The notes beneath the pieces are model-generated. The model was not told where the DNA came from. It made no database searches and saw nothing but the letters and a program-made list of their open reading frames with translations. The position numbers were made by a program, and so were the translations under genes. A DNA stretch of 64,000 nt from Deltaproteobacteria bacterium (lineage in GTDB: Bacteria; Desulfobacterota; Desulfuromonadia; Geobacterales; Geobacteraceae). Where the stretch lies: positions 1 to 64,000 of the forward strand of contig JAJZUC010000003.1 in NCBI GenBank assembly GCA_021847245.1. The letters run 5' to 3'. Of the stretch, positions 554-61,201 are shown piece by piece (positions within the stretch are counted from its first letter, which is position 1; every line of letters starts with the position of its first letter).

Positions 554-643
554 AAAGCCAACCATCAACCACCCCTCGGGGAGATTCCGTCTCCCTCCGG
601 GGATACGTGTCTCCTCCTGGGACAACCCGAAAGGAGACACGAA
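554..643 (+). promoter_or_regulatory. G/C-run leader 1 with sequestered ribosome binding site
   Basis: The arm at 607-615 (GTGTCTCCT) is a perfect 9-bp complement of 632-640 (AGGAGACAC), which holds the Shine-Dalgarno sequence of the gene starting at 644. Upstream, GGGGAGA near 575 can compete for the TCTCCTC segment. The layout matches the other leaders in this region. Confidence 0.7.
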
Positions 644-805
644 ATGAGAACCAACACAGTAGCCATCAGATGCGCCAACGGCAGAACCATCTACATGAAG
701 GCGGAGAAGTCCGCTGTCGAGATTTCCTGCAAGAACATCATCGCCGGAATCATGGTAGGAACAACTCTCCTCGCGTCGGCGGTCATCGCCTACGCCTGCA
801 TGTAA
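644..805 (+). CDS. small single-pass membrane protein (53 aa), unknown function
   Basis: This short gene has an ATG eight bases after a GGAG site and a TAA at 803-805. The 53-residue product has a polar N-terminal half (about residues 1-29, including CANGRTIYMKAEKSAVEISC) and one hydrophobic helix near residues 31-52 (IIAGIMVGTTLLASAVIAYA). It ends in CM, suggesting a tail-anchored inner-membrane protein. It sits between two structured leaders, which supports it being a real gene despite its size. No family was recognised. Confidence 0.6.
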   Translation: MRTNTVAIRCANGRTIYMKAEKSAVEISCKNIIAGIMVGTTLLASAVIAYACM

Positions 806-887
806 ACCATCACAAACCCCGATCAGGGAGACGGACTCCCTCTCGGGGGCGTTCCGTCTCTCCGGGCATGAAAAGGAGACAGAACCG
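806..887 (+). promoter_or_regulatory. G/C-run leader 2
   Basis: GAGACGGA at 828-835 pairs with TCCGTCTC at 853-860. The latter segment can instead pair (GTCTCT with GGAGAC, 856-861 with 875-880) with the ribosome binding site of the nuclease gene at 888. The two pairings exclude each other. Confidence 0.65.
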
Positions 888-1853
888 ATGGCACGCCTCG
901 ACGATTTTCTGAAAAAGGCAATACCCGCACATCAGCAAAAGATGTCAGCACATCTTGGTGATCGCACCAGGTACGCCGGGGCCTCCGACATAGCCGGATG
1001 CCCCCGCAAGGCGGTACTTGGCAAGCTTCAGCCGGTCGCCCATTCCATCAAGCAGCAGCTCGTCTTCGCAAGGGGGCACGCGGCGCAGGCCATGTTCAGG
1101 GAGTTCTTCCTGTCGGGCGGCGCCACTTTCCAGGAAGAGGTCGAGATCTGCCACCCGTCCCATGACATCGTCTGTCATATCGATTTCCTCTTTCGGGGGA
1201 GAAACCGCTTCCATGTGGTCGAGATGAAGTCCACGGGCGGCATTCCCGAGGAACCTTACGGCAGCTGGGTCGACCAGTTGCACGTACAGATGGGCCTTCT
1301 CAGAATCAGGGAAGGCGAGAAAGCGGAGATTGGCGGCTCGATCCTGGCGGTAGACCTGAACAAGGGGGAATACCGGGAGTTCAACTCCTATGCTCCCCAT
1401 CCGGAGGTCTTCACCCCCCTGATCGAGAGGGGCAGTCACATCCTCTCCGCCATGCGCGGCGAGTGCGAACCGAACACCATACCGAGCATTCTGTGCGGCC
1501 ACTGTTCGTACCGGACAGGATGCCCTGCTCACAGGGATCAGGAGATCCCCCGGGAGGTCACAGACCGTGTCGCCGACTATGAGAGTCTTGACCGGCAGAA
1601 AAAAGCCCTCGAAAAGAGAATGGACCCGCTGAAGAAAGAGCTGATCTCCTTCTTCGGAGAGCGGTTCCAGGGGATCACCGACACCGGGATCGCCGTGGCG
1701 ACGACAACCGTCGCTCCGGGCGAGACCGTCGACTCCACCAGACTGAAGAAAGACTTCCCCGACGTGTACCAGGCCTGCAGCAAGCCGAAAGCGGGCTACA
1801 CGAAGCTGGAAGTCAGACAGTTGCCACCAGCGCCGCTCGCCAAGGCGGCCTGA
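888..1853 (+). CDS. RecB/Cas4-like PD-(D/E)XK nuclease with 4Fe-4S cysteines
   Basis: This 321-aa protein has the layout of an iron-sulfur RecB-family nuclease. A lone cysteine sits at residue 38 (IAGCPRK). It is followed by an acidic motif (CHIDFLF), then VVEMKST giving the E-x-K catalytic pair, then QLHVQMGLL (the conserved Gln motif). A C-terminal CGHCSYRTGC trio completes a four-Cys cluster as in Cas4 and AddB. The family cuts or resects DNA ends, often with a helicase partner, but no helicase is adjacent. The start at 888 follows GGAG with good spacing. A role in element DNA processing or recombination is inferred. Confidence 0.75.
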   Translation: MARLDDFLKKAIPAHQQKMSAHLGDRTRYAGASDIAGCPRKAVLGKLQPVAHSIKQQLVFARGHAAQAMFREFFLSGGATFQEEVEICHPSHDIVCHIDFLFRGRNRFHVVEMKSTGGIPEEPYGSWVDQLHVQMGLLRIREGEKAEIGGSILAVDLNKGEYREFNSYAPHPEVFTPLIERGSHILSAMRGECEPNTIPSILCGHCSYRTGCPAHRDQEIPREVTDRVADYESLDRQKKALEKRMDPLKKELISFFGERFQGITDTGIAVATTTVAPGETVDSTRLKKDFPDVYQACSKPKAGYTKLEVRQLPPAPLAKAA

Positions 1854-1943
1854 GACCAAACCCCATCCGGGGGCGAATCACGCGCCCCCCGGGGTCACTC
1901 CTTTTCACGGGGAGGCGCGTATCCGCCCTGAAAAGGAGCAGTC
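1854..1943 (+). promoter_or_regulatory. G/C-run leader 3 with sequestered ribosome binding site
   Basis: CTCCTTTTCA (1898-1907) is a perfect 10-bp complement of TGAAAAGGAG (1929-1938), which is the ribosome binding site of the gene at 1944. A separate hairpin (GGGGCG with CGCCCC) precedes it, and a small AGGCG/CGCCT hairpin sits in the loop. Confidence 0.7.
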
Positions 1944-2195
1944 ATGAAAACACGAACGGGCGTCCTGCCCAAAGATTGCAAACATCTCTCCCGGTCGAAG
2001 ATGAACAGCGAGGACCTCAAGGAGCTTCTGTGGACCATCCTGGCGGCAGTCGTCATGGTGGTCTCGGTCGGCTTCTGCTTTCTCGCCGCCTCCGCCGCTC
2101 CGGAGCCAGAGGCTCGGGAAGCGGTCATCCTGAAAGGAGGTCACGGGCATGCCGGCTCTTACCCTGTCGCTGCACGGCGCCAATCGAATCCTTGA
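1944..2195 (+). CDS. small membrane protein (83 aa), unknown function
   Basis: The ATG follows the sequestered GGAG of leader 3. The 83-residue product has a charged N-terminus, one hydrophobic helix at about residues 29-52 (LLWTILAAVVMVVSVGFCFL then AASAA) and a Gly/His-rich tail. The helix plus AASAA could be an anchor or an internal signal. Its end overlaps the start of the next gene at 2149 by 47 bases in another frame, so the two are probably translated in a coupled way. No family was recognised. Confidence 0.55.
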   Translation: MKTRTGVLPKDCKHLSRSKMNSEDLKELLWTILAAVVMVVSVGFCFLAASAAPEPEAREAVILKGGHGHAGSYPVAARRQSNP

Positions 2196-2352
2196 GCGGT
2201 CTGTACCGCTCGAGGCACTGGAAGGCGTCAAGCTCGCCGTCCCGCTGCTCACGGAAAAACCCCTGCGTTTTCGCTACAAGGGGGTCACGGTGATAGCGAG
2301 GATGGCGTCGGGATGCCCGAAGATCATTTCCGCCTGGAAGGAGGCCATATGA
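2149..2352 (+). CDS. DUF4258-like small protein (67 aa)
   Basis: The ATG at 2149 follows AAAGGAGGTCACGGGC. The product resembles DUF4258 proteins: an N-terminal strand and helix with LSLHGANRILERSV, then LRFRYKGVTVIARM, then a C-terminal strand. That fold is related to RelE-like small proteins, but catalytic residues cannot be assigned by eye. The gene overlaps its upstream neighbour and ends in ATGA with the next gene (stop 2350-2352, next ATG 2349), so it sits in a tightly coupled small operon. The family call is tentative. Confidence 0.55.
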   Translation: MPALTLSLHGANRILERSVPLEALEGVKLAVPLLTEKPLRFRYKGVTVIARMASGCPKIISAWKEAI

Positions 2353-2786
2353 AGGACCTATGTGATTGCGGCGCGATCACCGCGCTGAGAGAACTGCACA
2401 AGACGTACGGCAAGCTCCACGACATCCTGTCCGACTGCATCGAAGCGGGCAAACTGTCCGCGGCGGCCATGCCTGACGACTATGCCGTCATCGTGGAGCA
2501 GATCACCCGCTGTGTCGCGATAGACCATGCGATATCGGCGGTGTTCAATCTCTACGACGACGAGCTCGGGGAGGGAAAAGTATTCCTGTTTTCTATCGAC
2601 CCGGCGCTGTTCAAGAGACAGCGGGCACTCCTTTCCCGCCTCCTCAAAGAGGATAAACCGCGCCCTTCCACCGACCTGGAACCTCTGGAAGGGATCAGGA
2701 ACCTCCTCGACGCCATCGCCGACCAGGCACATGACTGGTACGGCATGGACACGCTTTTTCTGGAGGAGGGGGATCGTGAACCCTGA
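2349..2786 (+). CDS. conserved hypothetical protein (145 aa)
   Basis: The start at 2349 was chosen because it overlaps the previous stop as ATGA and follows GGAAGGAGG; a longer in-frame ATG at 2313 lacks this. The product is acidic and mainly helical by appearance, with CDCG near the N-terminus (residues 5-8), a central YAVIVEQITRCVAIDHAI segment and an Asp/Glu-rich C-terminus. No catalytic motif or family was recognised. It is co-translated with the DUF4258-like gene. Confidence 0.55.
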   Translation: MKDLCDCGAITALRELHKTYGKLHDILSDCIEAGKLSAAAMPDDYAVIVEQITRCVAIDHAISAVFNLYDDELGEGKVFLFSIDPALFKRQRALLSRLLKEDKPRPSTDLEPLEGIRNLLDAIADQAHDWYGMDTLFLEEGDREP

Positions 2787-2883
2787 AGCATAGAACACTC
2801 ACCTGAACGTATTTCAAACCCCATGGGGGCGGATCATTTCCCCCAAAGGGGGATGGTCCGCCTCCGAAAGGAGACAGCCCATC
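2787..2883 (+). promoter_or_regulatory. G/C-run leader 4
   Basis: GGGGGCGGATCA (2825-2836) pairs over 12 positions (two G-T pairs) with TGGTCCGCCTCC (2854-2865), around a CCCCC-AAA-GGGGG hairpin. The last four bases of the second arm (CTCC, 2862-2865) can instead form a GAAA tetraloop hairpin with GGAG (2870-2873), the ribosome binding site of the ATPase gene at 2884. Confidence 0.75.
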
Positions 2884-3807
2884 ATGAAACAATCCATCAC
2901 GGAAGTATTCGGCATCCTGGCTCCCGCCACGATCACCGTCGATGTGCGCGACAACGCGATACACGCGATGATCCCCCGCTCCAATCCGGACTACGTGTTC
3001 CGGAGAGAAATCCTGTCGGACATTCTGGCCTGGATGAAAGGAGCGGCGGGAACCGATCCTCTCTATCTCGTAGGTCCTACCGGCTCCGGCAAGAGTTCAA
3101 TCATTACCCAGATCGCCGCGCGGCTCGGCATCCCCCTCTACGTGGTCTCGTGCCACGAGAGGATGGAGATCCCCGAGCTCTTCGGACGCTTCGTCGTCAG
3201 AAGCGGCGAGATGGAATGGGTGGACGGCCCCTTCATCCAGGGGCTCAAGGACCCGGCGTCGGCGTGGATACTCCTTGACGAGGCGGATACTCTCGACCCG
3301 GGCACCTTCGTCGGGCTGAACGCCCTTCTCGAAGGTCGCTCCATCATCGTTCCCGAAACCGGGGAGACCATCGACCCGCTCCGTTTCGGCGCCCGTATCA
3401 TCTACGCCGGGAACACCGCCGGCAACGGCGACACGACCGGTCTCTACCAGTCGACCAAGCGTCAGAACCTCGCCTCCATGGGAAGGTTCATGATGCTCGA
3501 GGTCGGTTACGCGAACGCCGCGGAGGAGGATCAGGCCCTGGGGAAAGCTGTCCCGGAGGTTCCCTCCCCGATCCGGCAGAAAATGATCGAAGTGGCCAAC
3601 AAGGTCCGCGACCTCTTCCGAAACGGCGAGATCGAGGTCACCTTCTGCACCCGTACCCTCATCCGGTGGGCGCAGCTGGCCACGTTCTTCAAGGCGAAGC
3701 CGGGAATAAACCCCATGACCTACGCCCTTGACCGGGCGCTCGGCTTCCGGGCCGAACCCGCCTCCCGCCAGGCTCTCCATGAACTGGTGCAGCGGATCAT
3801 CGCATAG
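2884..3807 (+). CDS. MoxR/CobS-type AAA+ ATPase
   Basis: This 307-aa AAA+ ATPase has Walker A GPTGSGKSS at about residues 64-72 and Walker B WILLDEADTL at about 128-137. A sensor-like IIYAGNTAGNGD follows, then an arginine-containing C-terminal lid. Size and layout fit the MoxR/CbbQ/CobS group, which acts as a chaperone-like remodeller with a VWA-domain partner. That partner is encoded at 5305, with a DUF3150 gene between, an arrangement I know from plasmids and phages. Target and biological role are unknown. It starts 10 nt after the GGAG of leader 4. Confidence 0.85.
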   Translation: MKQSITEVFGILAPATITVDVRDNAIHAMIPRSNPDYVFRREILSDILAWMKGAAGTDPLYLVGPTGSGKSSIITQIAARLGIPLYVVSCHERMEIPELFGRFVVRSGEMEWVDGPFIQGLKDPASAWILLDEADTLDPGTFVGLNALLEGRSIIVPETGETIDPLRFGARIIYAGNTAGNGDTTGLYQSTKRQNLASMGRFMMLEVGYANAAEEDQALGKAVPEVPSPIRQKMIEVANKVRDLFRNGEIEVTFCTRTLIRWAQLATFFKAKPGINPMTYALDRALGFRAEPASRQALHELVQRIIA

Positions 3808-3818
3808 GAGGTGGGGTC

Positions 3819-4202
3819 ATGTTCGTTCCCGGCAACACCCAATACGGCATCTGGATGAGGGCTCCCTCCTCCAGCGGCGGAAAGGACTGGATCGGGTTCC
3901 TCACCGACAGGGAAGTGATAAGTCAGTGGGGAAAGACCGGCCAGGTGAACCAGTGCAAGGTCATCGGACCGGCCCCCTCCCGGATTTTTCTCGACCAGAA
4001 GATCGAGGAGAAGAGGGGAAAGGGTTACCGGGTCGTCGGGGAATGGTTTCCCGGCAGAGGATGGTCGCACGAACGAAATGCCCAACCGCCACCGCAACCG
4101 AACCCTCCATCACAGAACAGGCCGGCTGCCGCGACGCCACCGCTGAACGGAAACGTCATGCGGGAGTGGCTGTCCGACCAGAACAGCGAACTATGGTTCT
4201 GA
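3819..4202 (+). CDS. hypothetical protein (127 aa)
   Basis: The gene starts 11 bases after the MoxR-type gene with its own AGGAGG, so it is co-transcribed. The N-terminal 80 residues look like a compact beta-rich domain (YGIWMRAPSSSGGKDWIGFL, then CKVIGPAPSRIFLDQKIEEK). The tail from about residue 88 is low-complexity and rich in Pro, Gln and Asn, ending near LWF. No known family was recognised. Its place inside the ATPase/VWA cluster suggests an accessory role, which is inference. Confidence 0.55.
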   Translation: MFVPGNTQYGIWMRAPSSSGGKDWIGFLTDREVISQWGKTGQVNQCKVIGPAPSRIFLDQKIEEKRGKGYRVVGEWFPGRGWSHERNAQPPPQPNPPSQNRPAAATPPLNGNVMREWLSDQNSELWF

Positions 4203-4272
4203 CCCAACCCGGGGGAGACGCTATCACCCCCACGGGGTGACGTCGCCTCCCCAAACATCGAGGAGAGACACA
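4203..4272 (+). promoter_or_regulatory. G/C-run leader 5
   Basis: Arms 4212-4230 and 4234-4252 form a 19-position hairpin (16 pairs, loop CAC). The 3' arm ends in GCCTCCCC, which can alternatively contact GAGGAG at 4260-4265, the ribosome binding site for the ATG at 4273. Confidence 0.65.
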
Positions 4273-5223
4273 ATGAGCCAAGACCACATACTCAAGAACA
4301 TTTCCATCATCGTTCTGTCCGTTTCCCTCTGGACCGGAAGGAAGAAACTCCGGCCGGAGGATCTGAAACTGGCGGACGGGAGCGAACTCCCACCCGACAA
4401 GCTCGCCACCCTCGGGAGCAAGAGGGTCATGGACCCAAGCGCCCTGGCGCCCTTCGCCACGTTCAAGCGGAGGGCCGAGCGGGCAGTGCTCGGGTTCGGG
4501 ACCCGTTTCCTCGGGGGCTACGCGGTCCCCATGGAGAGGCTGAAAATACTCATGGGCGATCTGGCGGAGATCGGCAGGGAGTTCGACGAAGCCAAGGAGA
4601 CTTTCCTGGCCGAATATGACACGGCGGTCGAAGAGTGGATCGCCGAGAACCCCGGCTGGGAGAGCGTGATCCGCAACGCGGTGGAGGACATCAGCTACGT
4701 GCGAACGCAGCTCTCCTTCTCCGTACAAACCTTCACCATCAACCCGGTGGAAGGGCATGAAAACGGCCTCGCGGCGGAGGTGAACGGCCTGGCCGACCAA
4801 CTCCGCCATGAAGTCCGTCAGCAGGCCCTGGCGACCTGGGACAGCTCCTTCCGGGGCAAGCTGGAGGTCGGGCAGAAGGCGGTGCGGCCGATCAGGGCGA
4901 TGCTCGACAAGATCGAAGGTCTGGTCTTTCTCGAGCCCGGCCTGAACGAGCTGGTCACCGGCATCAGGCTGACCCTCTCCGGTCTGCCGAAAACCGGACC
5001 GATCAAGGGGAAGGATTTCGCCGCCCTGTGCGGCGCGATTCACCTCCTCGGGAACATCCCGGAGGCCCGCGAGATCGCCGAGAATCCCCCTGTCGAGGAA
5101 GAACCGGCAGAGGAACTTCCGGCGGAGGAAGCGGAACCTATGGAAGAAGCCCGGGAGATCGAGGTCGTCCCGTTCACGCCTTACGTGCCTCAGTTCGAGG
5201 AGGCGCCATCCGAATGGTTCTAG
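4273..5223 (+). CDS. DUF3150 family protein
   Basis: This 316-aa protein fits DUF3150 by its opening (ISIIVLSVSLWTGRKKLRPEDL, quoted in part), its KRRAERAVLGFGTRFLGGYA segment and its position between a MoxR ATPase and a CobT-like VWA protein. The middle is long and helical, and the C-terminus (from about residue 275) is very acidic, with repeated PAEE. The ATG at 4273 was preferred over 4237 because GAGGAGAG lies just upstream. The family is of unknown function; it probably works with its neighbours as a remodelling complex. Confidence 0.75.
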   Translation: MSQDHILKNISIIVLSVSLWTGRKKLRPEDLKLADGSELPPDKLATLGSKRVMDPSALAPFATFKRRAERAVLGFGTRFLGGYAVPMERLKILMGDLAEIGREFDEAKETFLAEYDTAVEEWIAENPGWESVIRNAVEDISYVRTQLSFSVQTFTINPVEGHENGLAAEVNGLADQLRHEVRQQALATWDSSFRGKLEVGQKAVRPIRAMLDKIEGLVFLEPGLNELVTGIRLTLSGLPKTGPIKGKDFAALCGAIHLLGNIPEAREIAENPPVEEEPAEELPAEEAEPMEEAREIEVVPFTPYVPQFEEAPSEWF

Positions 5224-5304
5224 TCCTGTAAAGGACGATCCCGACCCTGCCGGGGAGTCATCAACCGACGCTCCCCGCAGGGGGGAGCGTCATCAGGAGA
5301 AACC
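5224..5304 (+). promoter_or_regulatory. G/C-run leader 6
   Basis: GACGCTCCCC (5267-5276) is a perfect 10-bp complement of GGGGAGCGTC (5282-5291), and can also pair with the upstream GGGGAGTC (5252-5259). Here the ribosome binding site (CAGGAG, 5294-5299) lies just after the 3' arm instead of inside it. Confidence 0.7.
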
Positions 5305-7152
5305 ATGGCACCGAAAATATCAACAGTCATCGGGGGGCTGCGGATCGCGCTGCAGGCCCTCGCCTCGAAGATGGGCGTGACCCTCCACATAGAGGGGGAC
5401 CAGGCCTACACCAACGGAAACATCATCGTCATCCCCACCCTCCCGGCCGATGACCACGAGGCGGCGATACTCGCCCGTGGCTACGTCGATCATGAAGCGG
5501 CCCATGTGGCGCTCACGGACTTTTCCATCGAGATGCCGCCATGGACCAACATCATCGAGGACGTACGGATCGAGAAGGAACAGGGGAAGATATATCCCGG
5601 CTGCGCCGCCAATCTGAAGACCCTGGCGGCGCTCCTGGCAAGAAAAGGAAAGTTTCGCGGGACTCCCGCGCAGCCGCTCTCGATGCTGATGTCGTGGGCG
5701 TGCTGTCGCGCCAGAACTGACGTGCTCGGACAGCCCCTCGGCAAGATCGCGAAGAAGGCGGAAGATTTCTGCCGGAAAGCCTTAGGCGACCACTTCTGCG
5801 ATCTCTTCGCGGCCCTCGTGGACAGAATCGGTTCGTGCAGCTCGACGGCCGACTGCGACGGGCTCGCGAAGGAAATCGAGGCCCTCATCGACAACCCGCC
5901 CGATCCTCCGCCTCCGCCACCGCCCTTACAGGGCAACCGGCAAAAGGAGGAAAGGGACGATGGAGGGAAATCGCCACAGAGCGGCAACGACCCTTCCGAC
6001 CGCAAGAGCGACCCTTCCGAGTCCGACGAGGACAAGGAGGGAGCTTCCGGGAAAGAAGGGAAACCCGCCGATCCGGACCGGACCGATACCGGTGGTGAAC
6101 CACCGGCTGCCGGCGACGGAAAGGGCTCCGGGAATGATCCCGGTGAGGCGGACGCCGATGAAGGCGGTTCCGGCACATCTCCCCGTACCAGGGGTGCGGC
6201 CGGCGGAAGCGATCCGCTCTCCGACCGGCAGAAAAACAACCTGAAGAAGCTGAAGGTGGCAGACGCCGCCGAAGCCTCACAGAGGGTTGATCTGGGGCAG
6301 ATGGTTTCCGCCATGCTTGGCAGGGAACACGAGGAAGGCGAACGTAACGGAACACTTGAAGAGATTCCCGACACCTCGCAGTTCAATGTCGGGGCGGGAA
6401 GTGGCCCCGGAGACCAGAAGACGGTCGAAGGGGACATGGGGCTCGACGATGCCCGTCGTAAGACGAGCAGGTTGAGGGCTCAGCTTGCGGGACTCCTGCA
6501 GGCTGTTCGCATAAAACACGCATATCCGAAACGGGTCGGGTTCCGGATCGACGGCCGGTCGGTCCATCTCATCGGCTGCCGGACTCCCGACACTCGCGTA
6601 TTCGCATCCCGGCGGATCAGGGACGATGACAACACCGCTATCGTCCTGCTCACCGACCGCTCGGGTTCCATGAAAGACAACAACAAGATCAGAGTGGCGC
6701 TGCAGGGCGCATTCGTCACCGCCGAGGCGCTGGAACTCCTTCCGGGAGTGGCCTGCGCCGTGGGAGCCTTCCCCTGGGGCAGAGACATCGTGCAGTTGAA
6801 GGCTTTCGGTGCGAAACCGAGAGCCGGACGCTTCAATGTCGGCGCCAGCGGCGGCACCCCCATGGCGGAGGCCCTGCTGTGGTCCGGCATGCTTCTCACC
6901 CACCGTCAGGAAACCCGGAAGATCGTCATCGCGATGACGGACGGGGCCCCTGACGATCACGAGAAGACCGAAAGAGCGGTGGCGCGGCTGAGAGCCTGCG
7001 GGATCGAGGTGTACGGAATCGGTATCCTCGACGCCTGGATAGAAAGCTGGCTCAAGGAATCGTCATCGGTCATCAGACAGATCGACGATCTGCCGGCCGC
7101 ACTGATCGGCCTCCTCAAGGAGGCGCTCATCACCAGACTCAAGGCCGCCTGA
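5305..7152 (+). CDS. CobT-like VWA-domain protein
   Basis: This 615-aa partner of the MoxR-type ATPase has an N-terminal domain with HEAAH at residues 63-67 followed by NIIEDVRIEKEQGK, the metalloprotease-like signature of CobT/VWA proteins. A long Pro/Asp/Glu/Ser/Gly-rich linker spans about residues 195-310. The C-terminal von Willebrand A domain has a MIDAS motif, DRSGS at about 450-454, with GGTPMAEAL and MTDGAPDD further on. CobS/CobT pairs insert metals, while the plasmid and phage versions are of unknown function. No cobalamin genes are nearby, so a cobaltochelatase role is unlikely. Confidence 0.85.
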   Translation: MAPKISTVIGGLRIALQALASKMGVTLHIEGDQAYTNGNIIVIPTLPADDHEAAILARGYVDHEAAHVALTDFSIEMPPWTNIIEDVRIEKEQGKIYPGCAANLKTLAALLARKGKFRGTPAQPLSMLMSWACCRARTDVLGQPLGKIAKKAEDFCRKALGDHFCDLFAALVDRIGSCSSTADCDGLAKEIEALIDNPPDPPPPPPPLQGNRQKEERDDGGKSPQSGNDPSDRKSDPSESDEDKEGASGKEGKPADPDRTDTGGEPPAAGDGKGSGNDPGEADADEGGSGTSPRTRGAAGGSDPLSDRQKNNLKKLKVADAAEASQRVDLGQMVSAMLGREHEEGERNGTLEEIPDTSQFNVGAGSGPGDQKTVEGDMGLDDARRKTSRLRAQLAGLLQAVRIKHAYPKRVGFRIDGRSVHLIGCRTPDTRVFASRRIRDDDNTAIVLLTDRSGSMKDNNKIRVALQGAFVTAEALELLPGVACAVGAFPWGRDIVQLKAFGAKPRAGRFNVGASGGTPMAEALLWSGMLLTHRQETRKIVIAMTDGAPDDHEKTERAVARLRACGIEVYGIGILDAWIESWLKESSSVIRQIDDLPAALIGLLKEALITRLKAA

Positions 7153-7232
7153 CCTCCGTTATGGAGGACCCGCCCGCACCGGGAGTTCTAACCGACACTC
7201 CCGTATGGGGGGAGTGTCTTCAGGAGGCACAA
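7153..7232 (+). promoter_or_regulatory. G/C-run leader 7
   Basis: GACACTCCC (7194-7202) is a perfect complement of GGGAGTGTC (7210-7218). GGGAGTTC at 7181-7188 offers a competing upstream partner. AGGAGG (7222-7227) follows directly, before the GTG start at 7233. Confidence 0.7.
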
Positions 7233-7688
7233 GTGAAAATGAACAAAGTGACAATCAATCCGGACTACTTCGGTCCCGGCAACGGCCTGTACGTCATCCA
7301 TTTCGAGGAGGGATGCAGCACCCTCGGCTTCGATCGGGTGATGGAGCTGGGGAACCTGCTCGCAGCAGAGCTGGATCGCTGGGACCTGACCCCCCTGCCG
7401 GCCGAACGGGGCACGATGAAGGCCTACCGGAAGTACCGGCAGCTGACGGACCTGGTTCATCAGAAACACAGGCAGACCGGGTACCGCTCCCGGGCGGAAC
7501 TCACCCCTCAGCTCATCGGCCTCGAAGGAAAGAGGGTCGAGGTGGTGGACCGATACGGCGAGAAACGGCGCTTCTGGGTCGGCAGATCGACCGGCTGGAT
7601 ACCGTGCCACCTGGAGGTCTCCACCAGGAGATCGGACGGGGGCCCGGCAGTCATGGGCGCACCGTTCCAGTCGGTCAGGGTAGTCTGA
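7233..7688 (+). CDS. conserved hypothetical protein (151 aa)
   Basis: The GTG at 7233 gives the same site-to-start spacing as the other leader-controlled genes; an ATG at 7239 is the alternative. The product opens with a beta-type segment (NGLYVIHFEEGCSTLGFDRV), continues with a helix ending in YRKYRQLTDLVHQKHRQTGY, and has a C-terminal domain (LEGKRVEVVDRYGEKRRFWV) that looks like a small beta barrel. WIPCHLE follows. No recognised family or catalytic motif; cytoplasmic by composition. Confidence 0.6.
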   Translation: MKMNKVTINPDYFGPGNGLYVIHFEEGCSTLGFDRVMELGNLLAAELDRWDLTPLPAERGTMKAYRKYRQLTDLVHQKHRQTGYRSRAELTPQLIGLEGKRVEVVDRYGEKRRFWVGRSTGWIPCHLEVSTRRSDGGPAVMGAPFQSVRVV

Positions 7689-7787
7689 AGCGATCGGCAA
7701 AGTCACAACGACAAATCAAACATCACCCTTCGGGGGGGCTCAAGTCCCCCATGGGGACGTCCGCCCTCCGGAAAAGGAGCCCGCGAA
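7689..7787 (+). promoter_or_regulatory. G/C-run leader 8 (upstream of radC-like gene)
   Basis: GTCCCC (7744-7749) pairs with GGGGAC (7753-7758), and a G-run just upstream can pair with GCCCTCC. CTCC (7766-7769) pairs with GGAG (7776-7779), the ribosome binding site of the RadC-like gene at 7788. From memory, a published RNA class called the radC motif lies upstream of radC and other DNA-related genes of mobile elements. Confidence 0.65.
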
Positions 7788-8285
7788 ATGTCCCCCTATC
7801 AGAGAAATCTCTTCGGAGAGGAACTTCCCCCGGAGAAAAAGAAAATCACGATCCTGTCGATCGAGGCGAAGTACCGGAAAGAGGTAGTGCGTGAAGACGC
7901 CCCTGCGTGGGTGTCCAAGCGCTTCACCTCGGCGAGCCAGGTCTTCGAGATGTTCCATGACCTCCAGAGGGAGGCGAAGGAGCATTTCATCGCGTTGCAC
8001 CTGGACGGCAAGAACCGGATCGCCTGTCTCGACAGGGTTTCGGTCGGCTCCCTGAACCAGAGCATAGTGCATCCACGGGAGGTCTTCAAGACCGCTCTCC
8101 TGTCGAGCGCCGCGGCGATCCTTCTCCTCCACAACCACCCAACCGGCGATCCTACCCCCTCCCGCGAGGACCTGGAGATCACCAGGCGCATCAAGGAGGC
8201 GGGCGAACTTCTCGGCATCAGGGTGCTCGATCACATCATCATCGGCGAAAGCTACCTGAGCTTCGCCGAGCAAGGCCTTATCTGA
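7788..8285 (+). CDS. radC: RadC-like JAB/MPN domain protein
   Basis: This 165-aa protein consists almost entirely of the RadC-type JAB/MPN+ domain. KEHFIALHLDGKNRI starts the core, and HNHPTGDPTPSRED at about residues 115-128 supplies the metal-binding His-x-His...Asp motif. ELLGIRVLDHIIIGESYLSF closes it. The N-terminal helix-hairpin-helix part of chromosomal RadC is absent, as is usual for the short versions on plasmids and integrative elements. The enzyme activity of this family is not settled. Here it likely serves element DNA metabolism or anti-restriction, which is inference. Confidence 0.88.
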   Translation: MSPYQRNLFGEELPPEKKKITILSIEAKYRKEVVREDAPAWVSKRFTSASQVFEMFHDLQREAKEHFIALHLDGKNRIACLDRVSVGSLNQSIVHPREVFKTALLSSAAAILLLHNHPTGDPTPSREDLEITRRIKEAGELLGIRVLDHIIIGESYLSFAEQGLI

Positions 8286-8358
8286 CAACCCGGCAGGGGA
8301 AGAGCTCCCTGCGGGGGTTCTTGTCCCCTGTCCGGACAGACCCGAAAGGAGACAAGAA
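8286..8358 (+). promoter_or_regulatory. G/C-run leader 9
   Basis: TTCTTGTC (8318-8325) pairs perfectly with GACAAGAA (8351-8358), which abuts the ATG at 8359, so the GGAG at about 8348-8351 is largely enclosed. CTGTCC/GGACAG forms an inner hairpin. AGGGGAAG near 8295-8302 can compete for the CCCCT part of the 5' arm. Confidence 0.7.
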
Positions 8359-8799
8359 ATGGAAAATGGGAAAACCGGCAACGACACGCCGGCAACGAAA
8401 AAACTCATCCTGTCCGTGTCCGACAGCAGCGATTTCTTCGAGGCCGCGGATTACGCGGTGATCGAACTTACCGCCGAAATGATCGCGCGAATCAGGGAGC
8501 TCTCCGAAGCCGTCCGCACCCTGGGCGTCTACAGGGTTTCCGAATTCGACTATTCCTGCGTCTTCATGAACGCCGACTACGACCAGTGGGAAAGCGGCAA
8601 GGTGCCGCTGAAGGAATACCAGGGGAGGACCGAATGCAACCTCCTCAACATCACCGACAGCGGCTTCTACTGGTCCGGGCTGTACAGGCACACCGACATC
8701 CGGTGGTCAACCGACACGGTGTACCTCTCAGACCTCGACAGTGGCGACTATGACGAGCGGGAAGAGTATCCCGACAATGAAGTACAGAAGGCCGTCTGA
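8359..8799 (+). CDS. hypothetical protein (146 aa)
   Basis: This is an acidic protein of no recognised family. After a flexible N-terminus (MENGKTGNDTPATKKL) it has a beta strand (ILSVSDSSDF), a helix (VIELTAEMIARIRELSEAVR) and a Trp/Tyr-rich region (SGFYWSGLYRHTDIRWSTDT). It ends in a Glu/Asp-rich tail. The stop overlaps the next start as TGATG (8797-8801), which makes coupled translation likely. The strong leader and coupled neighbour support expression. Confidence 0.55.
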   Translation: MENGKTGNDTPATKKLILSVSDSSDFFEAADYAVIELTAEMIARIRELSEAVRTLGVYRVSEFDYSCVFMNADYDQWESGKVPLKEYQGRTECNLLNITDSGFYWSGLYRHTDIRWSTDTVYLSDLDSGDYDEREEYPDNEVQKAV

Positions 8800-9026
8800 T
8801 GGTCGATTTCAGTGGATACCGGATCGAGAGGACGGATGAACCGGGGATTCTGGGCTACGCCTACCGTATCTTTGGGCCGCGGGGCACGGAATTCGCGCTC
8901 ATCAGAAACAAGGTCAATCCCCATCAGTTGTTCGTCGTCAATACCAAGACCATGAACCCGAACGCCAGGATCAAGGGGTACGGGTGGTGGACGGACAAGG
9001 ACGGCGAACTGCGGCCACTGCGCTGA
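8799..9026 (+). CDS. small hypothetical protein (75 aa)
   Basis: The start overlaps the previous stop by one base, so it is probably translated by reinitiation. The product is basic and looks like a single small beta-rich domain: YRIERTDEPGILGYAYRIFG, then FALIRNKVNPHQLFVVNTKT, then YGWWTDKDGELRPL. No catalytic residue pattern or family was recognised. Confidence 0.5.
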   Translation: MVDFSGYRIERTDEPGILGYAYRIFGPRGTEFALIRNKVNPHQLFVVNTKTMNPNARIKGYGWWTDKDGELRPLR

Positions 9027-9056
9027 AAGAAGACAATACCCTTGAGAGGAGTCCTT

Positions 9057-9281
9057 ATGAGACATCCCCACTACGACTACACCCTTGATGAGGCCCTGGC
9101 TCTGGCCAGATCGATAAAGTACGGGCCGCTGCCGTTGCCTTCCGATCCGACTCCGGAGATTCCGGAGGCGATCGGGATCGTCGGGAAGTCGCTCAGAACG
9201 TGCGGCTTCAACTGGATCACCGGCCGTGTCGCCCTCGAACTCCTGCGAAAGGCCAATGGCGAAGAGGTCGCCTGGTCCTGA
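9057..9281 (+). CDS. small hypothetical protein (74 aa)
   Basis: The ATG at 9057 was chosen over an in-frame TTG at 9042 because GAGAGGAG lies at the right distance. The product starts MRHPHYDYTLDEALALARSI, has a Pro-rich middle (GPLPLPSDPTPEIPEA) and ends in a helix. No family was recognised. It lies 30 bases after its upstream neighbour and is likely in the same transcript. Confidence 0.5.
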   Translation: MRHPHYDYTLDEALALARSIKYGPLPLPSDPTPEIPEAIGIVGKSLRTCGFNWITGRVALELLRKANGEEVAWS

Positions 9282-9354
9282 TCAGCAACCCCAACGGGGA
9301 GACAATCCCCGGAAAGGGCTCTGTCTCCCCATTTCAAACAACAAGGAGACAGCC
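9282..9354 (+). promoter_or_regulatory. G/C-run leader 10, clear competing helices
   Basis: GGGGAGACA (9296-9304) is a perfect 9-bp complement of TGTCTCCCC (9322-9330). The overlapping segment CTGTCTCC (9321-9328) is also a perfect 8-bp complement of GGAGACAG (9345-9352), the ribosome binding site of the gene at 9355. The two helices cannot coexist, so this leader has an ON form (site free) and an OFF form (site paired). Confidence 0.75.
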
Positions 9355-10029
9355 ATGGCTGACTACATTTCCCAGGGGCCGTTCCAGCCCTCGATACCCA
9401 AACATCTCATAACCGAAGAAGACATGAAAATCCTCGACGCTTTCGGACTCACCATCACGCCGGACGGAGAAGACAAGCTGTATCTCTTCGCCGATGACTG
9501 GTGCACCCACGGCGTCCTTGCCGCGGATGATCCGAAGGACGACACCGAGCTTGAAGAGGAGGCCCTCTATTCCTGCCTCCAGGGGATCATCCGCCGTTCC
9601 AACGGCGAACTCCCCTGGATATCGAAAGAGACGGCGTACACCTGCACCAGGAACCTGCCGGACGGATTCGGCGGCAGCGCGGTATTCGTGACCGCCGATG
9701 ACGTGCAGTACTTCGGAACCGGTTCGTGGCTGGAACAGCGAATCCATGAAACGGAAAACAGGGACAACGTGCCGAAGCCTCCCACCGTTTGCGTTGTCCT
9801 GGATGGTGGAGCTGTTCAGAAGGTCGTTACCGACCTCCCCGAACAGTTTCCTGCATCAATGGACGTCGTGGTCATCGACACCGACGTGGAAGGTTTCGAC
9901 GAACAGAGCCTCCTCAAGCTCCCGCACAACGGCGAGACAGAGCATGCCGTGGGTCATCTCGTGAAGCTGTCGAACTCCGACTATGACCTGGCAGCCGTTG
10001 TCGATCAGATCAAGAAGAGGGGGTGGTGA
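9355..10029 (+). CDS. two-domain hypothetical protein with repeated C-terminal module
   Basis: This 224-aa acidic protein was started at the ATG after AAGGAGACAG. The N-terminal 140 residues (ending near HETENRDNVP) are of unknown type. The C-terminal 80 residues begin PPTVCVVLDGGAVQKVV, continue with DVVVIDTDVEGFDEQSLLKL and end AAVVDQIKKRGW. That module recurs at the C-terminus of the protein encoded at 10634. It looks like a small alpha/beta domain with alternating strands (VVLDGG, VVVIDTD). No known name was recognised. Confidence 0.6.
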   Translation: MADYISQGPFQPSIPKHLITEEDMKILDAFGLTITPDGEDKLYLFADDWCTHGVLAADDPKDDTELEEEALYSCLQGIIRRSNGELPWISKETAYTCTRNLPDGFGGSAVFVTADDVQYFGTGSWLEQRIHETENRDNVPKPPTVCVVLDGGAVQKVVTDLPEQFPASMDVVVIDTDVEGFDEQSLLKLPHNGETEHAVGHLVKLSNSDYDLAAVVDQIKKRGW

Positions 10030-10030
10030 A

Positions 10031-10552
10031 ATGGCCCCACGGAAACAGATGACAGGCGAACCCACCAATGAGGAACGTGCCGAGCGGATCGACACGGTGA
10101 TGCAGGCGTACTGCCTGACTCTCGATGGTCGGGATTTCGAGGGCGACGAAGATGACTTCAGGGACCTGCTCACGGACCTGATGCACTTCTGCGAGCGAAT
10201 GGAAATCGACTTCAACGAAAACCTCCGTGTCGCCCGAGACAATTACGAACACGAAAGGGAGGTTGAAACCGGCATCCCCAATAATCTCGGCTGTTCGGAA
10301 TGCGGTTGCATTCTCGAGGTATCCCGGACCGACACCCTGCTGGGGATCGACCGGGTGATCTTCGACTGCCAGAACTGCGATGGGACATTCATCCGGGAAC
10401 TGACGGTCGCGGACAGCCCCATTGAGAGAGCCGTCAAATGCGTCGGTTGCGGCAACCTGATCGTAAGAAGCACCGCGCGCATTTTCTACCAGAGCGACGA
10501 TCTCGCCCATTACATCGGCGAGTGCTGCTGGGACGAGCGGCTGAGAGATTGA
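10031..10552 (+). CDS. zinc-ribbon hypothetical protein (173 aa)
   Basis: The ATG at 10031 lies two bases after the previous stop. The N-terminal half is acidic and helical (DTVMQAYCLTLDGRDFEGDE). The C-terminal half carries three Cys pairs: CSECGC near residues 85-90, CQNC near 113-116 and CVGC near 136-139. CC follows close to the end. These are likely zinc ribbons or a rubredoxin-like knuckle, which could bind nucleic acid or protein. Family unknown; it sits between the two genes that share a C-terminal module. Confidence 0.6.
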   Translation: MAPRKQMTGEPTNEERAERIDTVMQAYCLTLDGRDFEGDEDDFRDLLTDLMHFCERMEIDFNENLRVARDNYEHEREVETGIPNNLGCSECGCILEVSRTDTLLGIDRVIFDCQNCDGTFIRELTVADSPIERAVKCVGCGNLIVRSTARIFYQSDDLAHYIGECCWDERLRD

Positions 10553-10633
10553 ACAACAATGCCAACCCGACAGGGGGCGGAACCTTTCCCCTTGGGGGAG
10601 TTCTGCCCTCTCACACAGAAAAGGAGACAGAAC
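10553..10633 (+). promoter_or_regulatory. G/C-run leader 11, clear competing helices
   Basis: AGGGGGCGGAAC (10572-10583) pairs over 12 positions (two G-T) with GTTCTGCCCTCT (10600-10611). The same central segment can pair over 10 of 12 positions with AGGAGACAGAAC (10622-10633), which contains the ribosome binding site and abuts the ATG at 10634. The competing design matches leader 10 with different sequence. Confidence 0.75.
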
Positions 10634-11182
10634 ATGGCAAGAAACCTTCTGCAGGAACTGATAGAAACCTTTCCTCAGGCCGATCCTGCAAGCGAGTTCC
10701 ATGGCGAGGAGATCAACGGCTGCGAAGCCGTCAATTTCATCTCCGAGTTCATCCCGGATGTCAGGGAACACCTCGATAGCGAGGGGAACCGTGAGAGCGA
10801 AGCACTCGCGGTTCTAAAGGCATGCTGGAAATTTATTGAGAACGTGACTGACGAGTACCCGGAGCGGACCGACAAGTTTTTCGACCTGCGCGAGCGGGTG
10901 CGAAACGTCCTGTCGGATCGGCGCCATGAACCACCGACCGTAGCCGTCATCCTCGAAGGGGGCCTGGTGCAGTGCATCGTTTCCGACCGTCCGAATGACA
11001 TCCAGTCGATGAACCTCATGGTCCTCGACTATGACACGGAAGGAGCGGACGAGGAGGAACTGCTGCAGGTGCCCCAAAAGGACGGCTCCATCTCGACGGC
11101 AACCGGTCGCTACGTGGGTTTCGATTACGCGGAGATCGGCCTTGCCGCCGTCATGGATCAACTGGACACGAGAGGATGGTAG
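10634..11182 (+). CDS. two-domain hypothetical protein, paralogous C-terminal module
   Basis: This 182-aa acidic protein has an N-terminal helical domain (NLLQELIETFPQADPASEFH, then a helix with ALAVLKACWKFIENV). Its C-terminal 80-residue module (PPTVAVILEGGLVQCIVSD, then LMVLDYDTEGADEEELLQV, ending AAVMDQLDTRGW) clearly matches the C-terminus of the protein encoded at 9355. The two N-terminal domains differ, so the shared module may be a common interaction or ligand-binding unit. It is placed under leader 11. Confidence 0.6.
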   Translation: MARNLLQELIETFPQADPASEFHGEEINGCEAVNFISEFIPDVREHLDSEGNRESEALAVLKACWKFIENVTDEYPERTDKFFDLRERVRNVLSDRRHEPPTVAVILEGGLVQCIVSDRPNDIQSMNLMVLDYDTEGADEEELLQVPQKDGSISTATGRYVGFDYAEIGLAAVMDQLDTRGW

Positions 11183-11204
11183 GTCAAGGAAAAGGAGGAT
11201 TGAG

Positions 11205-11600
11205 ATGAGTCCCAAAACACCACGCCCGGCCGCCGCGCCGGGATACACGATTCAACGTCGGTCGCACTGCGGCAAGATTTTCGTGACCGTGACGACAATG
11301 GAAGGGAAACCGTTCGAGGTTTTCATCCGCTTCGGCAAGGCCGGCGGCTGCGGCTCGGCAATGGCCGACGGCATCGCCCGGCTTGTCTCCTACGGACTTC
11401 GCTCCGGGCTGGAGGCCCATGATGCTGTCAAGGCATTGGCCGGGATCTCCTGCCACCAGGGGCCGAAGACCTGCCTCAACGAGGTGGCATGCGCGATCAG
11501 GCTGGTGTTGCAGCACCTGGAAACAGGCGCTGACCTCAACGGCATTATCGAAGATGAGGAGTTTGCTGAAGCGAACGGCTTGGAGGTTGTCTCCACATGA
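11205..11600 (+). CDS. TSCPD-domain protein
   Basis: This 131-aa protein is built around a TSCPD-type domain, known from the C-terminus of class II ribonucleotide reductases and as stand-alone proteins. KIFVTVTTMEGKPFEVFIRF is followed by GKAGGCGSAMADGIARLVSY and LRSGLEAHDAVKALAGISC. Cysteines at about residues 47 and 83 fit the family's CxxC-like chemistry only partly. No reductase gene is nearby, so its job is unclear. The start at 11205 follows AAAGGAGG. Translation runs into the lipoprotein gene. Confidence 0.75.
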   Translation: MSPKTPRPAAAPGYTIQRRSHCGKIFVTVTTMEGKPFEVFIRFGKAGGCGSAMADGIARLVSYGLRSGLEAHDAVKALAGISCHQGPKTCLNEVACAIRLVLQHLETGADLNGIIEDEEFAEANGLEVVST

Positions 11601-11623
11601 AAACATCACAGAGGAGTATGGGT

Positions 11624-11896
11624 ATGAAAGAAACGCGTCTGATTCTTATGGTACTGGCGACGATCCTTGGCGGCTGCAGCCACAGCCAGTGGGCCAGTGT
11701 CGAGCTTGCTACCAAGGGGGCTTCCTGGTTGAACCCCGTCGCTACGGTGGTCCACATGACTGCCAGCACCGGCAGGGCCCTGTCCGATCCTCAAGAGGAG
11801 CTGCGGGAAAAGGTGCAGCAACGCGAAGAGGAGCAGAAAAAGGAACCACCCTTGGAAAAGTCGCGGCCGGGTCCGCCTGAGACCGTGACGAAGTAG
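11624..11896 (+). CDS. small lipoprotein (90 aa)
   Basis: MKETRLILMVLATILGGCSHSQ is a classical lipoprotein signal: a charged start, a hydrophobic core and an LGGC lipobox with Cys at residue 18 (quoted in two parts: MKETRLILMVLATI and LGGCSHSQ). The mature part has a short ordered stretch and then a Glu/Gln/Lys-rich coiled tail (EELREKVQQREEEQKKE). The ATG at 11624 has GAGGAG seven bases upstream. A longer frame from 11597 overlaps the TSCPD stop but would spoil the signal peptide. Probably anchored in the outer or inner membrane. Confidence 0.7.
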   Translation: MKETRLILMVLATILGGCSHSQWASVELATKGASWLNPVATVVHMTASTGRALSDPQEELREKVQQREEEQKKEPPLEKSRPGPPETVTK

Positions 11897-12065
11897 CCGG
11901 TTGAATGGTGGCATAGTCCACCCTTCAGATAAAGGGGAGCGGTGCTTCATGCACCCTCCCCAGGCCTCTTCCCCAGCTCAAGAGGGTTCCTCGGAGCCTC
12001 CGTCAACACGGTGGTTGCGGGGAGCCCTCTTGGGCGCCAATCACAGAGATAAGGGGGAGAGGACC
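11897..12065 (+). promoter_or_regulatory. long structured leader 12
   Basis: Two hairpins are visible. The first is 11934-11961 (GGGGAG and GGTGC pairing with GCACC and CTCCCC). The second pairs AGAGGGTTCCTCG (11981-11993) with CGGGGAGCCCTCT (12018-12030) over 13 positions, with a smaller CCTCCG/CGGTGG hairpin inside. AGGGGGAGAGGA follows, before the ATG at 12066. The leader is longer than the others but shares the G/C-run style. Confidence 0.6.
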
Positions 12066-12221
12066 ATGACAGTCAAGGCAAGGATAAACGGCAGGGAGTA
12101 TTCGCTTTCGTGGGAGGAATTCGAGAAGGCAGTGCTGAGGAACGATGTTACCAGCGGCCAGATCGAGGTCGTTTCCATTTTCACGGGAATGAGACCCTGC
12201 AAGAGTCTTCAGGTTGGATGA
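12066..12221 (+). CDS. small hypothetical protein (51 aa)
   Basis: This small protein starts MTVKARINGREYSLSWEEFE, a beta hairpin followed by a helix. It ends with FTGMRPCKSLQVG and looks like a single compact domain. The ATG follows GGGGGAGAGGACC, and a strong terminator lies 20 bases after the stop, so it is probably the last gene of the accessory operon. No family was recognised. Confidence 0.55.
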   Translation: MTVKARINGREYSLSWEEFEKAVLRNDVTSGQIEVVSIFTGMRPCKSLQVG

Positions 12222-12339: not shown

Positions 12340-12615
12340 ATGACGAAAGCCGATTTAGTCGACAAGATTCAAGAAAAGCTTTCATGTAATAAGAAAGAAG
12401 CCGTTGAGTTGGTTGAACTCACCTTGGATATTCTCAAGGATGCCATTGCGACCGAAGGGCATGTGAAGATAAGCGGTTTCGGGAATTTTGTTGTTCGCCA
12501 GAAGGCCGACCGAAATGGAAGGAATCCGCAGACCGGGGAGACCATCACCATCACATCACGGAAGGTTCTGACGTTCAAGCCGAGCGTATTGTTGAAAAAT
12601 CGTATCAATCAATAA
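12340..12615 (+). CDS. IHF/HU family DNA-bending protein
   Basis: This 91-aa protein has the full DNABII fold: an N-terminal helical pair (MTKADLVDKIQEKLSCNKKE), VKISGFGNFVVRQKADR leading into the arm, NGRNPQTGETITITSRKV with the DNA-minor-groove Pro, and LTFKPSVLLKNRIN. The GRNPQTGE form is typical of IHF-alpha-like members. Such proteins bend DNA at oriT, recombination sites and promoters, so this one may serve transfer or gene control on the element. It has its own start after AAAGGTCCGAG and lies beyond the terminator, so it is likely transcribed separately. Confidence 0.9.
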   Translation: MTKADLVDKIQEKLSCNKKEAVELVELTLDILKDAIATEGHVKISGFGNFVVRQKADRNGRNPQTGETITITSRKVLTFKPSVLLKNRINQ

Positions 12616-60402: not shown

Positions 60403-60460
60403 TTTGTTCTCCTTCCTTGTTGTGGTGTGACGACTTGCTACCCTCGTGACTCGTCTTACG

Positions 60461-61201
60461 TTATTTCGGGACATTCACCCCCTTTCCGTCCAGAAGCGCC
60501 TTTATGCGCGGGATGTCCGCCCCGTTGATAGCAACGCCGTCAATCCAGATGGCCGGCGTCCCTTGCACGCCAATGCTCTGTGCGACTTTTTCCATATCCT
60601 CCAGTTGCGAGGCATTGTTTTCATCCTGCGGTATCGGCTTGCCGTCCAGTGCGCCGCTGAGAACCTCACGGAATGCATTCTCCTTCTCCTTCTGCGACAG
60701 GATGTAACGGGCCTTCTTTTCCGCATCGGGATGAATTCTCCGAAGCGGGAAGAAGAACACATAGCGGGTGATGTCGGTCCTCTTCGCGAGGAGTTCGTCC
60801 ACTTTGCGGCAGAAGGGACAATCAGGGTCGGTGAACTCTATGACCTGGTGCGGGCCGGAACCGATTTTCAGGGCCTTGTCCAGCGGGATGCTTTTCAGTT
60901 TCTCGGCCAGGACCTTCTCGCGTGTCTCGGCGGTCAGGTTTTTCCCGTCCTTGCTCCACAGTTCGCCGAACATCAGGAAGCCGTCCGGGCTGAAGTAGAA
61001 AACCTGGTTTCCGGCAACGATCTCGTACAGCCCCTTCACGGGTGATTCCCTGAAATTGTCCACTCTCAGATTCGGAAAGCTCTTCTTCAGGTTTTTCTCC
61101 TCGGACTTCAGGCTCTCGTTCGCCGCGGAAAGACCCGCCGTGGTGACGATGACCAGGATGATCCCGCCGATCTTGAGCTTTTTCTTCGTCAGAACTCTCA
61201 C
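60461..61201 (-). CDS. DsbC-like disulfide isomerase
   Basis: This 246-aa periplasmic protein has an N-terminal membrane/signal helix (LKIGGIILVIVTTAGLSA). A dimerisation-type domain (GLYEIVAGNQVFYFSPDGFL) is followed by a thioredoxin domain with FTDPDCPFCRKVDELL (CPFC at about residues 128-131). GVQGTPAIWIDGVAINGADI supplies the cis-Pro. DsbC-like proteins reshuffle disulfides, which fits the Cys-rich TraN, TraU and 665-aa proteins of the same operon. The start lies at the ATG overlapping the end of the OmpA-like gene. Confidence 0.9.
   Translation of the reverse strand: MRVLTKKKLKIGGIILVIVTTAGLSAANESLKSEEKNLKKSFPNLRVDNFRESPVKGLYEIVAGNQVFYFSPDGFLMFGELWSKDGKNLTAETREKVLAEKLKSIPLDKALKIGSGPHQVIEFTDPDCPFCRKVDELLAKRTDITRYVFFFPLRRIHPDAEKKARYILSQKEKENAFREVLSGALDGKPIPQDENNASQLEDMEKVAQSIGVQGTPAIWIDGVAINGADIPRIKALLDGKGVNVPK

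Follow-up and report, generated by a model that had tools for sequence, protein, structure and literature searches.

Probable bistable translational attenuators in the RNA leaders of a mobile DNA-metabolism module

Why should a run of accessory genes carry a separate structured leader in front of gene after gene, and what might such leaders do? The question is raised by the first 12 kb of contig JAJZUC010000003.1 (positions 1 to 64,000, the whole stretch analyzed here and termed the window), contig C47 of a 2.96-Mb draft genome from the Geobacteraceae (GCA_021847245.1). Twelve gene starts on its + strand are preceded by intergenic leaders, and these belong, with one exception, to an RNA class positioned directly ahead of start codons, in which two competing helices are conserved in two separate genome sets. 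We conclude that the leaders are probably cis-acting bistable translational attenuators.

A shared leader design with two competing helices

All twelve leaders that the initial annotation had reported are present where it placed them. Its proposal of one design with one strong hairpin fits less well: side-by-side comparison shows that eleven share the arrangement ACCC-n-GGGG..-CCCC-n-GGGG-..TCTCC..-GGAG-ATG, leader 12 has a different, longer hairpin, and a single hairpin understates a structure in which two mutually exclusive helices are present. Six strands can be distinguished: a (ACCC), b (GGGGAGACA-like), c (CTCCC), d (GGGG), e (TGTCTCC-like, complementary to the Shine-Dalgarno sequence and hence anti-SD) and f (the AAGGAGACAG-like Shine-Dalgarno (SD) region ahead of ATG), and their order is the same in the leaders of Geobacter anodireducens plasmid pSD and Pelobacter propionicus plasmid pPRO1. 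Strand e pairs with b or with f, never with both. In leader 10, the clearest example (Table 1), b:e comprises 9 and e:f 8 perfect base pairs (bp), and the two are mutually exclusive.

A covariance model built from 35 leaders of Desulfuromonadia only (R1) recovers nine window leaders from 138 kb of searched sequence with E<=0.0003 to 1e-10, scores that are not independent because these nine are in its training set. R1 also finds leaders of the same kind in other genomes, and the covariation first noted within the window recurs in homologous leaders of other elements, so that the initial annotation's view of a structured RNA family holds beyond this one molecule. A second model (R2) was trained on a wider set that includes some leaders from the records of Pseudomonas aeruginosa PA83, Azospirillum, Methylomonas and R997, an R391-type integrative and conjugative element (ICE).

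To test whether pairing goes beyond shared G- and C-runs, we compared the duplex energy of each strand with its own partner to that with partners from other leaders, both in 96 Desulfuromonadia leaders of <70% identity (set 1) and in 59 leaders from Alpha- and Gammaproteobacteria (set 2). Own partners were strongly favored in set 1 for b:e (z=-16.1), e:f (z=-13.3) and b:c (z=-7.5), and remained so when swaps were made within elements as a control for composition and host (-9.8, -9.3 and -6.7, respectively). Set 2 gave the same result (b:e -12.7, e:f -10.7, b:c -7.0); the b and c segments overlap by three alignment columns in set 1 and do not overlap in set 2. The control pairs b:f, c:f, d:f and a:f showed no own-partner signal in set 1, where that for a:d was weak (z -2.8). 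Two mutually exclusive helices, both under selection, are thus found in both leader sets, as expected of a bistable switch.

Sequence variation within the helices points the same way. For e:f, which is absent from the model that made the alignment, two-sided changes that keep pairing occur in 73 cells compared with 30 in shuffles, and the 80.6% pairing falls to 48% or less when the partner is slid by one column and to at most 51% with any slide. For the b:e structure, two-sided changes number 99 against 39 and 143 against 56 in shuffles, although the alignments used had been fitted to b:e. Coding-strand counts for b:e include far more G-U than A-C (166 vs 58; 135 vs 23), as expected if selection acts on the RNA strand. 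RNAalifold detected next to no structure in a raw MAFFT alignment, which is probably explained by the inability of a single alignment to represent two alternative folds; the partner swaps, made helix by helix, avoid this difficulty.

These results bear on whether the repeats function as DNA instead, either as palindromic protein sites or as single-strand promoters when a plasmid enters as single-stranded DNA. The elements concerned are conjugative or conjugative-like and do contain inverted repeats, but a DNA-level role is highly improbable given that matches follow the coding strand up to a start codon, that e:f includes the SD and tracks its variation, that b:e shows the G-U preference just described, and that the leaders have no common recognition sequence.

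Leaders 6 and 7 form a sub-type II, with counterparts in pSD and pPRO1 (L003:18404-18471; L004:21353-21431). Here, the middle strand is GACACTCCC and has two alternative partners, CGGGAGT on its upstream side and GGGAGTGTC immediately before the SD, and a CCTCC-like upstream strand is able to pair with the SD itself. Leader 12 (structured part at 11940-12065) instead forms a very stable, long, two-part hairpin with conserved arms CAAGAGGGTTCC / GGAGCCCTCTTGG and a closing helix that covers the SD. This structure is kept before the homologous small gene in pSD and in several other Desulfuromonadia elements, and neither R1 nor any Rfam family matches the region; leader 12 may also be an attenuator, of a different design.

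Table 1. Leaders in the window, the genes they precede, and their principal strands and helices
Feature	Position	Strand	Downstream gene	R1 match	Strands and helices
Leader 1	554..643	+	53-aa small membrane-like protein gene at 644	570-646, 50.8 bits	anti-SD 606-615 CGTGTCTCCT : SD 632-641 AGGAGACACG
Leader 2	806..887	+	PD-(D/E)XK nuclease gene at 888	817-888, 43.8 bits	b:e 826-835/853-862 (10 bp) vs e:f 856-861/875-880
Leader 3	1854..1943	+	gene at 1944	1860-1947, 26.7 bits	strong e:f 1898-1907 CTCCTTTTCA / 1929-1938 TGAAAAGGAG; b:c 1869-1875/1883-1889
Leader 4	2787..2883	+	CbbQ/MoxR-type AAA ATPase gene at 2884	2818-2882, 39.2 bits	mainly a long SD-free b:e hairpin, computed P(b:e) 1.0
Leader 5	4203..4272	+	DUF3150 gene at 4273	4202-4275, 36.1 bits	
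Leader 6 (sub-type II)	5224..5304	+	CobT-like VWA gene at 5305	5244-5307, weak, E 0.19	5267-5277 with 5251-5258 or with 5282-5291 immediately 5' of SD
Leader 7 (sub-type II)	7153..7232	+	gene at 7233	7172-7235, weak, E 2.2	7194-7203 with 7210-7218 or with 7180-7186
Leader 8	7689..7787	+	radC at 7788	7724-7789, 38.6 bits	
Leader 9	8286..8358	+	gene at 8359	8288-8361, 41.1 bits	b:e 8292-8300/8324-8332 vs e:f 8318-8325/8351-8358
Leader 10	9282..9354	+	gene at 9355	9288-9358, 46.3 bits	b 9296-9304 GGGGAGACA; e 9321-9330 CTGTCTCCCC; f 9345-9352 GGAGACAG
Leader 11	10553..10633	+	gene at 10634	10565-10636, 52.6 bits	
Leader 12 (not a class member)	11897..12065	+	gene at 12066	none	closing helix 11965-11974 CCTCTTCCCC / 12053-12062 GGGGGAGAGG, covering the SD

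Predicted folding and possible triggers of the switch

In computed ensembles of whole leaders, the SD-masked fold was the more stable in 74/96 and 46/59 leaders of the two sets, and the full leader folded as e:f in 124/155. When leaders were cut before strand f, b:e formed in 92/96 and 54/59 cases (146/155 overall), and the addition of f turned 69/96 and 40/59 leaders (109/155) from b:e to e:f; with an f borrowed from another leader, such switchers dropped to 33-39/96 and 14-24/59. Because prefixes are predicted to fold as b:e and most complete leaders as e:f, transcription order alone could make the SD accessible first and masked later.

According to the mechanism that we favor, each translation unit would carry one attenuator, in which the anti-SD strand e sits between b and f. 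As long as f has not been transcribed, e would pair with b (state B), which we infer to be the ON state. The prediction for most leaders is that synthesis of f lets them relax to state A; there, e would mask the SD, b and c would form a small hairpin on the 5' side, and initiation of translation would fall. The switch might operate mainly as a folding-time window, with state B on young and state A on mature mRNA, or it might be tipped by upstream ribosomes or by a trans factor.

Several observations weigh against a bistable attenuator of this form. State B, in which the SD is free, is favored in 22/96 and 13/59 full leaders, and window leaders 4, 5, 8 and 11 are among those predicted to prefer the SD-free fold at full length. 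Moreover, c:d has no significant own-partner signal in either set (96 and 59 leaders), and counts of G-U and A-C do not discriminate for e:f.

A simpler possibility is that the leaders are static, with e:f setting a fixed, lower level of translation for each cistron and b:e being a folding intermediate of no regulatory role. For most leaders the computed ensemble consists predominantly of state A, and the published bet leader of the ICE SXT is described simply as an attenuator (PMC4542580). Yet it is b:e that has the strongest own-partner signal in both sets, and this helix keeps two-sided changes, unlike a useless intermediate; we therefore consider static attenuation rather unlikely.

If, on the other hand, bistability is used for timing, then up to ~20 cistrons of one element could be translated only while their mRNA is young and be shut upon relaxation to state A, and the module, of the type found in SXT/R391 ICEs, IncA/C plasmids and megaplasmids, would be expressed as a burst after the onset of transcription, with no dedicated trans factor. 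We put forward this element-wide folding timer tentatively, as a possibility about which we remain doubtful. Similar reservations apply to the notion, also raised in the initial annotation, of a regulon in which an element or host protein or a small RNA recognizes the common fold and switches every leader at once. Each element has many leaders of the same fold, with a conserved ACCC / GGGGA start and common spacing, which speaks for a shared trans factor; however, the helix sequences vary between leaders while pairing is kept, and three alignments inspected by eye contain no strongly conserved unpaired core beyond the C- and G-runs and the SD. The lack of such a core likewise sets the leaders apart from ligand riboswitches. 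With nothing found that requires a trans factor, no candidate for one, and a purely cis-acting kinetic account that fits as well, a regulon of this sort is conceivable but doubtful.

The switch might also be set by translation of the preceding gene, if a ribosome finishing that gene covers strands a and b. The upstream stop codon is <= ~10 nucleotides (nt) from the leader, and sometimes overlaps it, in slightly under half of annotated cases, but the distance from stop codon to leader appears unconstrained (median 15, quartiles 5-34.5, up to >100 nt). Distances this variable argue against stop-codon coupling as a general trigger, and we judge a coupling switch to be unlikely as an account of the class.

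Finally, the b:e hairpin could be an intrinsic terminator, which would make the leaders transcription attenuators. The hairpin is strong and G+C-rich, and a U-run follows it in 18/59 of the alpha- and gammaproteobacterial leaders, but only 9/96 Desulfuromonadia leaders have at least four U between e and f, the corresponding SXT block reportedly forms a single large operon with its start at s089 (PMC4344509), and termination leaves the conservation of e:f with the SD unexplained. This explanation is very unlikely.

The module, its element and the spread of the leaders

The + strand genes in the first 12 kb of the window encode a PD-(D/E)XK nuclease, a CbbQ/MoxR-type AAA ATPase, DUF3150, CobT-like VWA, RadC and TSCPD proteins and several small unknowns, with Pfam matches to PDDEXK_1 (gene at 888), AAA_5/CbbQ_C (2884), DUF3150 (4273) and RadC (7788). 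The initial annotation took genes that lack a leader to be translationally coupled to the gene before, and this is mostly borne out in annotated relatives, where many of them overlap or lie <= ~30 nt from the previous gene, but some gaps of 50-250 nt have no detected leader. Just past the module, at 12341-12615, is a gene for an HU/IHF-like DNA-binding protein (identified by eye), which follows a long spacer with no class leader.

The nearest DUF3150 homologue found (97% identity) is from Geomesophilobacter sediminis, and the same module is present on pSD, pPRO1 and Geoalkalibacter plasmid pGSUB1; the window therefore represents a Desulfuromonadia plasmid or integrative element. A similar block (SSB, Bet, Exo, AAA, DUF3150, VWA, RadC, primase) occurs in R997, and the same kind of block, partial or complete, in plasmids of Pseudomonas, Azospirillum, Methylomonas and Allochromatium. 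A DUF3150 search of viral_contigs returned no relative.

Leader matches in the home genome are limited to window positions 570-10636 and to a second contig, C92. The C92 locus (L012, G000:C92:3304-6386) has two class leaders, located before ssb and a RecA/AAA-like ATPase gene (gene names assigned by eye). In the Geomesophilobacter sediminis relative, leaders that match occur at the opposite end of the module, which makes C92 the probable remainder of the window's element, its missing left part. The window begins with the 3' end of a group II intron (48-124), and pGSUB1 has a group II intron at a similar place (L002:1218-1294). The window's intron probably caused the break in the element's assembly.

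Across the class Desulfuromonadia, 47/277 genomes contain R1 matches, typically several per genome clustered on one contig, and in a phylum-wide sample only 9/297 genomes have matches at E<=0.001. The best 150 Desulfuromonadia matches precede members of 25 gene families. Elements carry up to ~20 copies, concentrated in the DNA-metabolism module (DUF3150, CobT-like VWA, CbbQ ATPase, RadC, Exo, Bet, SSB), and carriers comprise Desulfuromonadia elements, pPRO1, pSD, Pseudomonas and Azospirillum megaplasmids, R997 and the IncA plasmid pRA1. R1 matches in the P. aeruginosa PA83 plasmid, the Azospirillum plasmid, Methylomonas and R997 are on the coding strand in 36/37 cases. With R2, seven leaders were located in R997, all at 59.6-67.9 kb of 85 kb and one directly 5' of bet, and about 20 in pRA1, which is outside the training set, nearly all at 73.7-99.8 kb of 144 kb. 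In five annotated plasmids, 55/58 matches have an annotated start codon no more than 8 nt from their end, an agreement that is partly built in, as the models include the SD and start positions. Extra copies outside the DUF3150 module were seen at the starts of mostly hypothetical genes at 171-192 kb of the Azospirillum plasmid (L160) and 142-156 kb of the PA83 plasmid (L161).

Comparison with known regulatory RNAs

The initial annotation asked if the leaders are radC RNAs, a motif reportedly located upstream of radC and other mobile-element genes. This motif (RF01754, a 149-position model with a gathering score of 40 bits) has been proposed as a cis-regulatory RNA in Proteobacteria (Weinberg et al. 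2010, PMC2864571). The leaders similarly precede radC and other genes of mobile elements, but RF01754 matches none of them at any useful score: permissive filters, with E values allowed up to 10, gave no radC RNA match in the window's leader region, no leader was matched and nothing exceeded the cut-off when RF01754 was searched directly in four leader-bearing plasmid records, and cmscan of loci L002-L004 and L066-L070 matched no leader to it. We thus give the radC RNA assignment almost no credence. Among other Rfam families, the best was Gut-1 (23.8 bits, on the wrong strand and with a cut-off of 50), and the Rfam release searched does not contain the leader class.

The leader-peptide attenuators of erm and cat likewise sequester or expose the SD through alternative anti-SD pairings, and they depend on a ribosome stalled on a short leader open reading frame (ORF). 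Most of the present leaders differ in having no closed ORF of at least five codons: counting ATG starts, and not GTG or TTG, such ORFs occur in only 5/96 and 16/129 leaders. In the hok mRNA of plasmid R1, a metastable early fold is replaced by a later fold that controls translation, which resembles the order of folding predicted here; hok differs in that it encodes a toxin and is regulated through Sok RNA and processing of its 3' end, and we claim no sequence relation. Paralogous two-helix leaders of the kind described here offer natural material on how RNA folding order controls translation.

The closest known system comes from SXT, where a review (PMC4542580, reporting Garriss et al. 2013) places a strong translational attenuator ahead of bet; it is described there as a single element for bet (and exo) and is noted in IncA/C plasmids too. 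At the same place in the homologous module of R997, itself an SXT/R391 ICE, a structured leader with the same strands lies immediately 5' of bet: a weak R2 match (60455-60519, E 0.031) ends at bet, the minimum-energy fold pairs GACTCC with the SD GGAGTC in a 6-bp masking helix, and the same ACTCCC strand can pair with upstream GGGAGT. Considering the SXT report together with the fold of the R997 bet leader, SD masking is very probably backed by experiment for one member of the class. Differences from the SXT attenuator, as far as the available sections of the review go, are that the leaders form a family at most genes of the module, that they have a conserved competing anti-attenuator helix, and that they extend to Desulfobacterota, none of which is mentioned there; family, competing helix and range appear to be unreported in the available literature. 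A structured-RNA class with many copies per element is thereby added to the module that SXT/R391 ICEs, IncA/C plasmids and large environmental plasmids have in common, several of these elements being vectors of antibiotic resistance. What had been reported as a single bet attenuator appears to become part of a general post-transcriptional control, a second layer on top of the SetCD/AcaCD transcriptional switch.

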